Of a stretch of 58,345 nt of DNA, positions 11,415 through 16,461 are shown piece after piece. Position numbers and translations under genes: made by a program. The first letter of the stretch is position 1, and each line of letters opens with the position of its first letter. The stretch covers positions 1 through 58,345 of the forward strand of contig JAMCVZ010000012.1 of assembly GCA_023476565.1 (NCBI GenBank), given 5' to 3'. Source of the DNA: Nitrospirota bacterium. GTDB taxonomy: Bacteria; Nitrospirota; Thermodesulfovibrionia; Thermodesulfovibrionales; Dissulfurispiraceae. The notes under the pieces are model-generated. The model was given only the letters and a program-made list of their open reading frames with translations. It had not been told where the DNA came from and did not search any database.

Positions 11415-12701
11415 ATGAATAAAAAGGAAATACCAGACGGTACGATTGAGATTGTTGCTCGACACATAAATGAACGAAATAATCGTCCGTCAAAAATTCC
11501 GATAATCACCATTGACGGAGAAACCGAAACGCCTCATTATTTTGAAATCACACCTTTTGACCGGATAGACAAAACGAAAGCAAAATTCTTTGCTATTGAC
11601 GGAAGCTACAACAGCCAGGAGTTTTACAATGGTTTATCACTTGGCCTTTACACAGCGGGGTATATATGTTATCACGAAGGCAAACAAATACGACTTAACG
11701 ACCTGACAGACCCGGTAATTTTAGGCAAAGGCTACTATCCCAATAACATTCTTGTTACTAGTGATGAACACAGAGAGTCAATCTATGATGAATTGATGGC
11801 TTTAGAGCCAGTCAAAAACATTTTGCATTTTTTCTCTGAGGATGAATCAAAAGTCTTTGGTTTTAGCAAAGACATAATTTGCTCGACACTCTCAAAGCTA
11901 TTGAGTTTCTGTCAAGAAGTTTTGGAATGGTCATTAGTTTATGAAATATCTAATTTACTGATAATTCAAAAAGGGGATTTCATTCTCCGGGACGGGACAC
12001 TGCGTTCAAATAATATTAAACAAGAGTTTTTAGTAAAACTTGGAAAGCATGTAAAAGAGAAAGGAATCTATTTGGTAGCAATCACAAAAAACTCACCAAT
12101 AAAACTTGAACTTTCTTCCACTTTTAAAAAAATTGATAGTTTTCTGCAAGAAGAATACAAACCGAAGTATCCGTTTAAAACTCAAAATCCGAGGTGGCAA
12201 AAGATATGCTGCTGGCTTGAGGTTTCTGACGACATTTTAGTTCTTGCTTATCCCGAAGCCGGACAGCGAAAAGAAATGCAGGATGGGAAGGTTCAATCTG
12301 TAACAAAGACAAGTATGTTTGCCAAAAAAGGATTGACCGGTGGCAGAGGCTCTGGAGTATTCTTTGTTGCGAGGCTTGATTACGTTGAGAAACTTCAGAA
12401 TTATGATTGGGTCGTGGCTGACTTAAACATTTATGATGTTATTACAGGAATCGAAACAAATGACAAAAAGCGAGACATTGAAACTATCAATCATATTTTC
12501 TACGAACTAACAAGGTTAACGCAAGAGCATTACATTTTGGGTTATCCTTACCCTCTTGTTGAAGCACATAATTTTGTAACACTTAAACAAGATTTCAAAG
12601 ATGAAATAATCAAGCGAGTAAAGTTTGCCCTTTACAAAGAACAGCGAATGGACAATGTAGATATAGAAAACTTATTCTTAGATATTCATGAAAGGTTCTA
12701 A
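11415..12701 (+). CDS. NurA-domain nuclease
   Basis: A 428-residue protein of the NurA family, nucleases that partner HerA translocases in DNA-end processing. Visible family blocks are FAIDGSYNSQEF near residues 57-68 (metal-binding Asp), the ILRDGTLRS block near 190 and the C-terminal GYPYPLVEAHNF near 376-387. The gene is AT-rich compared with guaA and ispA, suggesting transfer. It is separated by 3 bases from the HerA gene. In archaea NurA-HerA works with Mre11-Rad50; bacterial pairs have been linked to phage defence, which is the likeliest role here. Catalytic residues beyond these motifs were not checked. Confidence 0.85.
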   Translation: MNKKEIPDGTIEIVARHINERNNRPSKIPIITIDGETETPHYFEITPFDRIDKTKAKFFAIDGSYNSQEFYNGLSLGLYTAGYICYHEGKQIRLNDLTDPVILGKGYYPNNILVTSDEHRESIYDELMALEPVKNILHFFSEDESKVFGFSKDIICSTLSKLLSFCQEVLEWSLVYEISNLLIIQKGDFILRDGTLRSNNIKQEFLVKLGKHVKEKGIYLVAITKNSPIKLELSSTFKKIDSFLQEEYKPKYPFKTQNPRWQKICCWLEVSDDILVLAYPEAGQRKEMQDGKVQSVTKTSMFAKKGLTGGRGSGVFFVARLDYVEKLQNYDWVVADLNIYDVITGIETNDKKRDIETINHIFYELTRLTQEHYILGYPYPLVEAHNFVTLKQDFKDEIIKRVKFALYKEQRMDNVDIENLFLDIHERF

Positions 12702-12704
12702 AAA

Positions 12705-14351
12705 ATGACAACAGAAAAGCATGACTTTGGCGTTCTTTACGGACAGAAAACAACAGAAGACGCCTTGCTGATTTACTCATCGTATGAAGACAGCAAGGCA
12801 AGCCCACAAACAGGTGATTTTATTGTCTTGACCCCGAGGGACGAAGACGGCCCCAAATTTCTGGCAAGAGTTGAAGCCGAAGTTTATGATGAAGACCCAA
12901 TTTTCCGTTCACAAGATAAGACACTAATTGCTGTTCATTATGCACGTATTGCAGAACGAGAACTTTCTGAACGTGATAAACAGAAAATGTTCAGTTATAC
13001 ATATAAAGTTAAGATACTTGGAACGTTTACTTCTGACGGAAAGGACTTTATAACTGCTGTAAGAAAACTTCCAACTGTTTCTTATCACGCCAGACACTTA
13101 ACGCCAAGAGAGTTTGAAAACATCTTGAATCGAGCAAATGAAAACGGTGTGGCAATCGGAAAGCTTTGTATCGGCAACGATATTCAGCTCGATAAAAACG
13201 ATATTTTATTTGACATCGGGAAATTGAGAGAAAAAAGAACAATGATTTTTGCTCAATCAGGATTTGGTAAGACAAACTTAATGAAAGTTTTAATCTATAA
13301 CATGATTGCTGATACAAATTACGGCAAACTGATTTTTGATTTGAATGGAGAATATTTTTTACGTGGAATAAAAACTTATGGATTAGGTGACATTAACGAA
13401 GATAAAATCAGAGACAACCTTGTAGTTTATACTGACAAGAAAATTGATAAATATATAGAAGATAAAAGGTTTGTATTTGGTGGTAGGGTCAGAATAAATA
13501 TGATTAAGCAATTGACCATAGGCGACATCTTAAACTTTAGTACCGGCTTTTCTGAAGTTATGAAATCATTCCTTCTTTATTTGGATGATAATCAAGTGGA
13601 AAATTTTATTGGGAACATTAATAATTATGTAAGCGATCCACAAAAGCTTCACCGAGATTTCTCAGATTTTTGGGCTGAAATGAAAAATAAAGGAGATGAG
13701 GCAAGTGCAAAGAAAACAATCGCAGCAATTAAGAAAAGAATTGCTTATTTAATTGATGAAAGCAAAAATTTACATAGCGGTTCCTCAACATTAATCGAGG
13801 ATGTTTTTAAATATCTTAAAGAAGGCAAAACAGTAATTGTTGATTTATCCCTTAATGACAATGCAGAAGCAAGTATCATTTCCACAATCATTGTCAGAAA
13901 ACTATTTGAGAACAACAAACGATATTTCACAGAAGATAAAAAGGATAAAGTAATTGATGTTGTTTTGTGCGTTGAAGAAGCTCAAAATGTTTTGTCGGAG
14001 GAGTTTGTAAAATCAAATGCAAATCCATTCGTTAGAGTAGCGAAAGAAGGTAGAAAATTTGGGCTCGGCGTAATAGCAATTACTCAAAGGCCTTCTGCTA
14101 TCTCCGAGGAAATTAGAACACAAGCTGAAAATTTCTTTTCATTTTATATGGGCAACTCAGATGACATTAAAGCCCTTGTGAAATCAAATATTAACTATGA
14201 TGGAGTGATAGCAAAGTTTATTCAAACAGAAACAATTCCTGGAAATCTCTATATGGTTTCCGCAAACCAATCATTTGCTTTACCACTTCGGGTAACGAAT
14301 TTTGAAAAATCCGTAAAGAAAAAAGTTTACGACGATTCATGGTTTGAATAG
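12705..14351 (+). CDS. HerA-family hexameric DNA translocase
   Basis: A 548-residue ATPase of the HerA/FtsK superfamily. The N-terminal part of about 100 residues is a HAS-barrel-like beta domain. Walker A is AQSGFGKTN near residues 183-191, followed by LIFDLNGEY. Walker B is VVLCVEEAQN near 418-427, with sensor/arginine-finger region VRVAKEGRKFGLGVIAITQRP and the HerA-typical IRTQAENFFSFYMGN. It should form a hexamer that pumps DNA toward NurA. It lies between the NurA gene and the DUF4338 gene, all in one direction with spacers of 3-5 bases, so it is co-transcribed. Confidence 0.92.
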   Translation: MTTEKHDFGVLYGQKTTEDALLIYSSYEDSKASPQTGDFIVLTPRDEDGPKFLARVEAEVYDEDPIFRSQDKTLIAVHYARIAERELSERDKQKMFSYTYKVKILGTFTSDGKDFITAVRKLPTVSYHARHLTPREFENILNRANENGVAIGKLCIGNDIQLDKNDILFDIGKLREKRTMIFAQSGFGKTNLMKVLIYNMIADTNYGKLIFDLNGEYFLRGIKTYGLGDINEDKIRDNLVVYTDKKIDKYIEDKRFVFGGRVRINMIKQLTIGDILNFSTGFSEVMKSFLLYLDDNQVENFIGNINNYVSDPQKLHRDFSDFWAEMKNKGDEASAKKTIAAIKKRIAYLIDESKNLHSGSSTLIEDVFKYLKEGKTVIVDLSLNDNAEASIISTIIVRKLFENNKRYFTEDKKDKVIDVVLCVEEAQNVLSEEFVKSNANPFVRVAKEGRKFGLGVIAITQRPSAISEEIRTQAENFFSFYMGNSDDIKALVKSNINYDGVIAKFIQTETIPGNLYMVSANQSFALPLRVTNFEKSVKKKVYDDSWFE

Positions 14352-14356
14352 AAATA

Positions 14357-15775
14357 ATGATAACACCAGCTTTAATATTACCTGAAAAGTTTTCGAGAAC
14401 GACTATGAAAAGTCCATCAAAGGAAATTCCTTTGAAGGAACAGGTTGTTAATAACATCAGACGAGACCTTGAACGTCTGAATTGGAAATTTAAGCTTCCA
14501 ACGAATAAAAATGCTTATCCTACTTTAGTGCCGCCCAACACCTACGATAAGGAAACTGTTAAGCAGTCAATGGCTTTCAAAAGAGATGAGATTATTTCAA
14601 AGCATCAAGGCTGGATTAATAAGCACATTGATATTGCAAGAAAAAATCTTGCAAATGGCTATGAGGTTTTGACATCTGAAATTGACCCAATCATTGAGGT
14701 TTGCAAGACTGAAAAGCAACACAGTTTATTTAGAATATTGCGTTATTACTGGAGTTCACCATACAGTGAATATGTTGGAAGAAGAATAAAACTTATCATT
14801 CGTGACAGAGCGTTGCCAAACAAACCTGTAATCGGAATCGCAGCATTAGGCAGTCCGATAATTCACATTCCCGAAAGAGATGAATGGATTGGCTGGGATA
14901 AGAACACACGAACAAAAAATTTAATTTACACTTTAGACGCTTATGTTATTGGTGCACTTCCCCCTTACAATTATTTACTTGGAGGTAAACTCATTTCCTT
15001 TATTCTTGCATCTAATGAGGTAAGAAAAATTTATCGGGATAAATACCGAGACCAAATAACATACAAGGAAAAGCGGACGGTAAATAAACTTATTGGAATC
15101 TTTACAACAAGTCTTTACGGTAATAGTTCTCAATACAATCGAATGAAATTTAACGGCGAATTGCTTTACCAGCCTATCGGGCAAACAAAAGGATTTGGCT
15201 CCTTACATTTAAGCGACGAAACAATTCAATTAATGATTAAATTTTTGAAATCAAGAAGAATTGAAGTTGGACATAAATTCGGAGACGGACCAAGTTGGAT
15301 AATGCGTGTAATTCGTAATGCAGGAGACCTTCTCGGCTTTGACTCTGACTTTCTTCTTCGACACTCTTTCAAACGCAACATTTATTTTATCCCTTTAGCC
15401 AAGAACCATAAAGAACTTTTGAACGGACAGACCAAGAAGGCACTGTTTAACAATTACTCTAAGAAAGATCTTGTAGACTTTTGGAAAAAACGTTGGTTAT
15501 TGAATAGGAAAAAAAATGCTGACGTGATTGCAAATGTTATTAACTTTACACCTAATGACTTCACAATTTTACCAACATGTAGCCCACGACAGACAGATTT
15601 AACAGGACAATATGAAACTGATAGCAATAACACGAAAATGGGGCCATCTAACCAAACAACAAAAAAACAGGCTACTGGTCTAAATCATCCGAAAATAACT
15701 GGAAAGCGGGAGATGCATTGTGAGGATAAACACACATGCCAGCGTTCCGGCATAAATGGAAATGAAAATAGTTAG
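14357..15775 (+). CDS. DUF4338 (DruA-like) protein
   Basis: A 472-residue protein carrying the DUF4338 domain found in DruA of the Druantia anti-phage systems. The recognisable core runs from SEYVGRRIKLIIRDRAL through VIGIAALGSPIIHIPERDEWIGWD, LDAYVIGALPPYNYLLGGKL, TTSLYGNSSQYNRMKF and GQTKGFGSLHLSDE. The biochemical activity of DUF4338 is not established. The last 50 or so residues (after SPRQTDLTG) are low-complexity and unlike the family end, so the C-terminus may be fused or extended. It is the third gene of NurA-HerA-DUF4338. No DruE helicase is present, so this is not a standard Druantia locus. Confidence 0.82.
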   Translation: MITPALILPEKFSRTTMKSPSKEIPLKEQVVNNIRRDLERLNWKFKLPTNKNAYPTLVPPNTYDKETVKQSMAFKRDEIISKHQGWINKHIDIARKNLANGYEVLTSEIDPIIEVCKTEKQHSLFRILRYYWSSPYSEYVGRRIKLIIRDRALPNKPVIGIAALGSPIIHIPERDEWIGWDKNTRTKNLIYTLDAYVIGALPPYNYLLGGKLISFILASNEVRKIYRDKYRDQITYKEKRTVNKLIGIFTTSLYGNSSQYNRMKFNGELLYQPIGQTKGFGSLHLSDETIQLMIKFLKSRRIEVGHKFGDGPSWIMRVIRNAGDLLGFDSDFLLRHSFKRNIYFIPLAKNHKELLNGQTKKALFNNYSKKDLVDFWKKRWLLNRKKNADVIANVINFTPNDFTILPTCSPRQTDLTGQYETDSNNTKMGPSNQTTKKQATGLNHPKITGKREMHCEDKHTCQRSGINGNENS

Positions 15776-15800: not shown

Positions 15801-16136
15801 ATGAATGTTGTAACAGAAGATGCGCTGATAGAGATAACTAAAGCAATCGTTGATGCAGTTAATCCGATGAAAATCATTCTGTTCGGCTCATATGCACGGG
15901 GAGATGCGCGTCCTAATTCCGACCTTGATTTCCTCGTTGTTGAAGAAGAGCCTTTTAGTGCTACAAGAAGCCGCAGGAAAGAAATAGGCAATATTTATCG
16001 GAAGCTTTTGAACTATGACATGCCTGTTGATATCCTTCTTTATAGTAAGAATGAATTTGATAAATGGAAAGATGGGATAAATCATGTCATAGCCAGAGCT
16101 CATAGAGAAGGAAGGATAGTATATGAGCGGAATTGA
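15801..16136 (+). CDS. MNT-domain nucleotidyltransferase (MntA-like antitoxin)
   Basis: A 111-residue minimal nucleotidyltransferase. The catalytic motif LFGSYARGDARPNSDLDFLVV gives GS-x10-D-x-D, and a third acidic residue (PVDILL) follows near residue 75. Such proteins pair with HEPN toxins, and in studied cases neutralise them by AMP-ylating the HEPN RNase. A strong ribosome-binding site (GAGGAGG) precedes the ATG. The reading frame overlaps the HEPN gene by 14 bases. Base use is closer to the core genome than in the adjacent HerA cassette. Confidence 0.9.
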   Translation: MNVVTEDALIEITKAIVDAVNPMKIILFGSYARGDARPNSDLDFLVVEEEPFSATRSRRKEIGNIYRKLLNYDMPVDILLYSKNEFDKWKDGINHVIARAHREGRIVYERN

Positions 16137-16461
16137 AGAGGCAAGACAAATGCTGAAAATGGCGGGAAAGGATCTGCGTGCCCTGCATGCCATGCTTGAT
16201 CCGGAAACATTTGACGAGGAAATATTCGGCTTCCATGCCCAGCAAGCCGTTGAGAAATCGTTAAAGGCATGGATTACAGCCCTCGGCAAAGAGCATAACT
16301 ACAAACATGATTTGCGTCCCCTTTTGATTAAACTGCAAGACCTTGGCTGCAATGTGGCTGATCTGAGGGAGTTTGTTGACCCCTTAAGTCCGGAATATTT
16401 TTACAACGGCGGTAACTTTGCCGATGAAATTAAAAGAACCGGCAAGGCAGTACCTATTTAG
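16123..16461 (+). CDS. HEPN-domain protein (toxin partner of the MNT gene)
   Basis: A 112-residue HEPN protein: EARQMLKMAGKDLRALHAML at the start, FGFHAQQAVEKSLKAWITALG in the middle and the KHDLRPLLIKL segment, where the expected RNase R-x4-6-H motif would lie. A clear R-x4-6-H was not confirmed. The C-terminus after PLSPEYFY is short (GGNFADEIKRTGKAVPI) and lacks the usual Arg-Tyr and final helix. The stop codon abuts the ispA ATG with no spacer. The end of the gene may therefore have been rewritten by a deletion. Confidence 0.82.
   Translation: MSGIEEARQMLKMAGKDLRALHAMLDPETFDEEIFGFHAQQAVEKSLKAWITALGKEHNYKHDLRPLLIKLQDLGCNVADLREFVDPLSPEYFYNGGNFADEIKRTGKAVPI

Follow-up and report, generated by a model that had tools for sequence, protein, structure and literature searches.

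A transferable NurA-HerA-DruA cassette pairs a TdpAB-like translocase-nuclease with a Druantia protein in a putative anti-DNA defence system

The window analysed here is a stretch of 58,345 nucleotides from a Nitrospirota genome (contig JAMCVZ010000012.1). Between its guaA and ispA genes lies an operon of three genes on the same strand, with gaps of 3 bp between NurA and HerA and 5 bp between HerA and DruA, and behind it an MNT/HEPN pair:

11415–12701, + strand: NurA-family nuclease, TdpB-like, 428 aa (PF09376 and TdpB matches)
12705–14351, + strand: HerA-family hexameric ATPase/translocase, TdpA-like, 548 aa (PF01935 and TdpA matches)
14357–15775, + strand: DruA/DUF4338 protein, 472 aa (PF14236 and PADLOC DruA)
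11415–15775, + strand: NurA-HerA-DruA operon, a transferred cassette between guaA and ispA (gaps, GC content, empty site, recurrence)
15801–16136, + strand: MNT nucleotidyltransferase of an MNT/HEPN toxin-antitoxin-like pair (PF01909, 54 bits)
16123–16461, + strand: HEPN protein of the MNT/HEPN pair (PF05168, 44.2 bits)

The first-pass annotation had described three co-directional genes with spacers of 3 and 5 bases, encoding NurA, HerA and a DUF4338 protein and followed by an MNT/HEPN pair, and this description is borne out. The open reading frame coordinates agree, and the Pfam scores of the three proteins exceed their cut-offs (NurA, PF09376, 32.7 bits versus 21; HerA central domain, PF01935, 66.8 bits versus 23.2; DruA, PF14236, 200.8 bits versus 27). 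PADLOC models recognize DruA (273.6 bits) and HerA (95.7 bits), and PADLOC has no model for the NurA of the window. The MNT gene scores below the cut-off of the MntA_antitoxin model and, in the gene tables of the fetched loci, the pair does not stand beside other NurA-HerA-DruA copies; it probably arrived in the same insertion as an independent passenger. The annotated absence of a DruE helicase also stands: the open reading frames and PADLOC reveal no DruE-type (YprA-family) helicase in the operon or its flanks, and PADLOC finds none in the window. Ordinary Druantia was rejected as an assignment because PADLOC detects no DruE-like genes at the locus.

Among all solved proteins, the HerA and NurA of the cassette are closest to TdpA and TdpB. 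A HerA profile finds TdpA (8wet_A) as its best PDB match with an E-value of 2.6e-43, the next best being 3.9e-24, and a search with the single HerA sequence finds TdpA at 5e-23. The NurA profile likewise matches TdpB best (8wet_G, E-value 3.8e-11 versus 2.4e-4 for the next entry). The AlphaFold model of NurA (pLDDT 84) superimposes best onto TdpB (8wfd_G, Z-score 22.3, rmsd 4.5, 335 amino acids), with the NurA of S. solfataricus in second place (Z-score 16.7). The catalytic motifs of both enzymes are conserved. An alignment of 40 NurA relatives contains an invariant D62-G63 and an acidic residue, D or E, at position 193 throughout, and 31 HerA relatives share the Walker A motif G186-x-G188-K189-T/S190, the acidic pair E424-E425 and R450-K451. 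TdpAB degrades unmodified phage DNA, and TdpC makes the phosphorothioate mark via an adenylated intermediate. Within TdpABC, a phosphorothioation-based defence system, TdpAB acts as the effector; its cryo-EM structures are 8WET and 8WFD (An et al. 2025, doi 10.1038/s41589-024-01832-w, cited in PMC12345140).

For the third protein, a core like that of GNAT acyltransferases is predicted. In its AlphaFold model (pLDDT 84) this core spans approximately residues 100–382, and all 50 best fold matches either are GNAT acyltransferases or contain one (Z-scores of 8.4–9.6 over 133–207 residues). Foldseek ranks the RNA cytidine acetyltransferases Kre33/NAT10 first; at E-values of 0.03 or worse this likeness is only a lead. 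No sequence relatives of DruA were found among solved structures. DUF4338 has been stated to be a GNAT domain (PMC10853773), and the same authors proposed that GNAT proteins are DNA-marking enzymes in HerA-containing systems (PMC12839542). Eight polar residues are invariant in 61 DruA sequences (Y204, K211, S257, S258, Y260, R262, H336 and R340). One of them, K211, belongs to the sequence PPYNxLLGGK, which is located at the strand-helix turn where the acyl-CoA loop is expected and which is similar, though not identical, to the canonical GNAT motif Q/R-x-x-G-x-G/A. Near residue 410 the DruA core gives way to a predicted disordered tail (residues 412–472) that has no counterpart in relatives. 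The reading frame of DruA runs about 60–70 codons beyond the ends of its relatives (15590–15775), the old stop codon having probably been lost.

The cassette is an insertion between guaA and ispA. In most relatives tested, among them the other genome from this genus, the two genes are direct neighbours, usually 10–240 bp apart. The operon has a GC content of 35.5% compared to 49.3% in the rest of the window, and the GC3 of its genes is 29–34 while that of guaA is 63 and that of ispA 60, in agreement with the claim that the locus is AT-richer than its neighbours. None of the 79 nearest genomes searched has NurA, and their only matches to DruA are distant and partial ones in two genomes. The HerA of the window is 94% identical to that of an Ignavibacteria copy (NurA 74%, DruA 78%) and 90% identical to that of a Planctomycetes copy (NurA 85%, DruA 65%). 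Cross-phylum identities this high point to recent transfer, and the cassette thus moves between phyla. As dS is near saturation for the close pairs of the window in the dN/dS analysis, we claim no positive selection. The empty site, the foreign base composition and the cross-phylum identity of HerA together uphold the earlier suggestion of a transferred island.

These data bear on the proposal that the genes form a repair or recombination locus, in which HerA-NurA would resect DNA ends as in archaea and DruA would be an accessory. End resection is the classical role of HerA-NurA (PMC5715905, PMC9960219), and the end-resection complex of archaea and Deinococcus comprises the same two enzyme families in what is presumably the same ring-plus-dimer layout. 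The cassette, however, is mobile, sporadic and accompanied by DruA, and in both sequence and fold it is nearer to TdpAB than to archaeal HerA-NurA. It is missing from the 79 nearest genomes, splits an otherwise intact guaA-ispA pair, has a foreign base composition and has crossed phyla, all of which makes a repair function very improbable. A housekeeping recombination locus of this lineage, which the first-pass annotation had named as a possible refutation, is rejected by the empty sites and the sporadic presence: the 79 nearest genomes searched lack the set and have guaA next to ispA.

To define the distribution of the cassette, bacterial and archaeal genomes were scanned with a DruA profile, which returned 441 relatives, and the best 80 were fetched as loci. 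As these are the relatives nearest to the DruA of the window, the following proportions are not those of DruA overall: 29 of the best 80 loci, all in other genomes, carry NurA-HerA-DruA in the order of the window; two carry a HerA-DruA truncated by the contig end; 13 have the order DruA-NurA-HerA, one of them with a split NurA; and at 25 a neighbouring gene encodes at least 900 amino acids, as in Druantia I. The DruA-NurA-HerA order is also found at 12 Nitrospirota loci, of which two are L140 and L146 again and two have extra genes inserted, so that about 23 more genomes in total display this arrangement. The hosts include Ignavibacteriota, Bacteroidota, Chloroflexota, Planctomycetota, Spirochaetota, Myxococcota, Bacillota, Cyanobacteriota and CPR. 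Within the phylum of the window, a TdpB-like NurA is present in 18 of 396 genomes, and 14 of these 18 have DruA at the same locus (one copy is broken). The number of genomes with both NurA and DruA expected by chance is 1.8 (p = 2.6e-12 across the 396 genomes, a value that kinship among them makes optimistic). With dozens of genomes carrying it, the trio is not a chance arrangement. The suggested co-occurrence of the three genes is thus found in many phyla, and DUF4338 does not stand without HerA in all relatives, HerA being present in many DruA loci.

Several loci depart from the basic arrangement. At L061 (4141–12978), a TmtA-like (sacsin/NOV_C) protein of 1054 amino acids is encoded between DruA and NurA, and its relative L060 (4655–11081) has a 765-amino-acid pentapeptide-repeat protein in the same place; both are nested insertions. 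At L075, NurA and HerA are separated by an inserted gene (1634–2665) for a 343-amino-acid protein that matches neither Pfam nor PADLOC. A broken DruA adjoins a broken NurA at G337:C6:145020-146634 (in L071), a decayed cassette. Many IMG/VR viral contigs (L162–L177) encode a 398-amino-acid DruA relative, that is, a phage DruA, followed in fixed order by genes for proteins of about 450, 250 and 92 amino acids.

The location of the copies bears on another possibility, namely that the cassette is the maintenance or competition machinery of a mobile element such as a plasmid or phage satellite, directed against rival elements and not against phages. Two DruA-NurA-HerA copies (L158 and L159) do lie in viral contigs and a resolvase follows the L060 copy, but most copies are in chromosomal contigs with unrelated flanks. 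Single-protein searches of plasmids, phages and viral contigs with NurA returned no match, and neither did a NurA profile search of viral contigs; the plasmid matches for NurA (L224–L226) carry HerA without DruA. We consider a function of this kind quite improbable.

NurA and HerA are a co-inherited pair, and DruA is exchanged among NurA-HerA types and the DruE helicases of Druantia I. Three observations lead to this conclusion: (i) the agreement of distances across loci (Mantel) is 0.94 for NurA and HerA and 0.72 with DruA, and within the DruA clade of the window these values are 0.86 for NurA and HerA and 0.50 and 0.37 with DruA, (ii) the DruA proteins that accompany a second type of NurA-HerA do not form one clade (AU p = 4e-58), and (iii) the DruA proteins of L107, L150 and L151 nest among those of Druantia I. 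At six loci (L078, L079, L086, L100, L101 and L137), DruA is 47–64% identical to that of the window while NurA and HerA are only about 18 and 28% identical. DruA is thus portable and associates with DNA motors of two unrelated kinds, as would be expected of a marker or a selector.

NurA-HerA pairs also occur with partners other than DruA. At L247 (7797–12168), a TdpB-like NurA and a HerA are directly followed by an N6/N4 DNA methyltransferase gene and preceded by a 792-amino-acid protein that has no Pfam match; this locus, which has no DruA, is possibly a methylation-marked relative of the cassette. L245 (3814–8938) and L246 (4759–9852), likewise devoid of DruA, carry ahead of NurA-HerA a TPR-containing ParA-like/AAA_31 protein matching the PADLOC candidate PDC-M28B, and represent another NurA-HerA system. 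The DruA-less NurA-HerA of L248 has a BrxD-like ATPase as its partner. Such a pattern fits a general DNA-degrading effector that combines with exchangeable selection modules. Separately, L067, L068 and L069, from the same phylum as the window, contain an operon without DruA that encodes HerA (706–719 amino acids), NurA (447–462 amino acids) and an unknown protein (368–375 amino acids).

Combining these findings, we propose, with a probability of about 0.5, that the operon is a transferable anti-DNA defence cassette in which HerA-NurA degrades invading DNA and the GNAT-fold DruA supplies the self/non-self decision, preferably by marking host DNA. The TdpA-like HerA would pull DNA as a ring ATPase, with the TdpB-like NurA docked on the ring as its nuclease. 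DruA would, in the preferred version, place an acyl-type group on host DNA, or on another host component, and the marked host DNA would then be ignored by HerA-NurA. DruA would thus fill the place that TdpC and the phosphorothioate mark occupy in TdpABC. The defence role itself we infer strongly, from the class of the effector, the mobility of the cassette and its relatedness to two established defence systems. Marking of DNA by DruA is a hypothesis: TdpC, with its DNA mark, and the L247 methyltransferase render marking the most attractive reading of DruA, but targeting explains its exchange equally well. Against acyl transfer stand the departure of the DruA loop from the usual GNAT motif and the middling fold match (Z-scores of 8–10). 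A stricter formulation, in which the cassette resembles a restriction-modification system, an acyl group is attached by DruA to a base or other moiety of host DNA, HerA-NurA destroys unmarked DNA and the same DruA part acts beside DruE in Druantia I, appears rather unlikely.

A somewhat better, still doubtful, candidate, and the chief competitor of the marking version, is a defence cassette in which DruA modifies nothing and acts as a sensor or loader that brings HerA-NurA to invader DNA or to a phage protein, being a targeting subunit shared with Druantia I. Its exchange between HerA-NurA and DruE effectors fits such targeting as well as it fits marking, GNAT folds can lose catalysis, and the cofactor loop of DruA is atypical; furthermore, in Druantia III a protein other than DruA, DruH, is described as the likely infection sensor (PMC13192584). 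The invariant polar residues in 61 DruAs, however, resemble an active site more than the face of a fast-evolving sensor, and L247 pairs the same effector class with a DNA methyltransferase.

The proposed marking cassette can be placed among known systems. Its layout is as compact as that of TdpABC, with three genes encoding one presumed marker, HerA and NurA, but its third protein is DruA, which has a GNAT-like core; TdpC makes phosphorothioates via an adenylated intermediate. Its own genome encodes no DndC above the cut-off, only a sub-threshold PAPS-reductase-like match. With Druantia type I, which according to Doron et al. 2018 reportedly consists of DruA-B-C-D-E, the cassette shares the DruA family (PF14236, PADLOC DruA), and some NurA-HerA-linked DruAs nest among those of type I; it differs in having neither the DruE helicase nor DruB-D and in using HerA-NurA as the effector. 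The main text of a study of Druantia by Bell et al. 2025 mentions neither HerA nor NurA (PMC12458937). A DruE-like helicase gene is present on the opposite strand right after DruA-NurA-HerA at L107 (13403–18487), a possible hybrid locus. In the HerA-DUF4297 and HerA-SIR2 systems, too, a HerA ring and an effector enzyme together form the defence unit (PMC11291478), whereas the effector here is a NurA nuclease of RNase H/PIWI-like fold and a third gene, DruA, is present. BRC systems (HerA/FtsK with GNAT and TGT) resemble the cassette in combining a HerA translocase with a GNAT proposed to mark DNA, but contain PglZ, DUF6079, STAND NTPase and DUF4007, none of which is found in the cassette (PMC12839542).

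The first-pass annotation had proposed a candidate defence system and expected recurrence near other defence genes. Recurrence, mobility and kinship with TdpAB and Druantia favour the proposal; clustering does not, since 167 PADLOC families in 117 flank genes compared to 158 in 115 random genes represent no excess over random regions. RM, Cas6 and CARF genes adjoin single loci. Lacking a clustering signal, we do not use clustering as an argument for defence. The likeness of NurA-HerA to TdpAB in particular, and the shuffling of DruA between effectors, go beyond the first-pass annotation.

The annotation also knew of no described system that joins all three genes, and we found no description of NurA, HerA and DruA joined in the literature searched, largely that outside subscription journals. 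The parts are known and their combination appears to be new. This novelty is most at risk from TdpC, which may be a DUF4338 protein too; the chemistry of TdpC, adenylation of DNA and then sulfur, argues against this.

The cassette ties together two separate lines of defence, Druantia and the TdpAB/HerA class, via one portable protein, DruA, and gives a handle on its function. With three genes in 4.4 kb and no 1,600-amino-acid helicase, it allows the role of DruA to be studied in a much simpler context. Should DruA prove to mark DNA, bacterial immunity would gain an acyl-type epigenetic mark.
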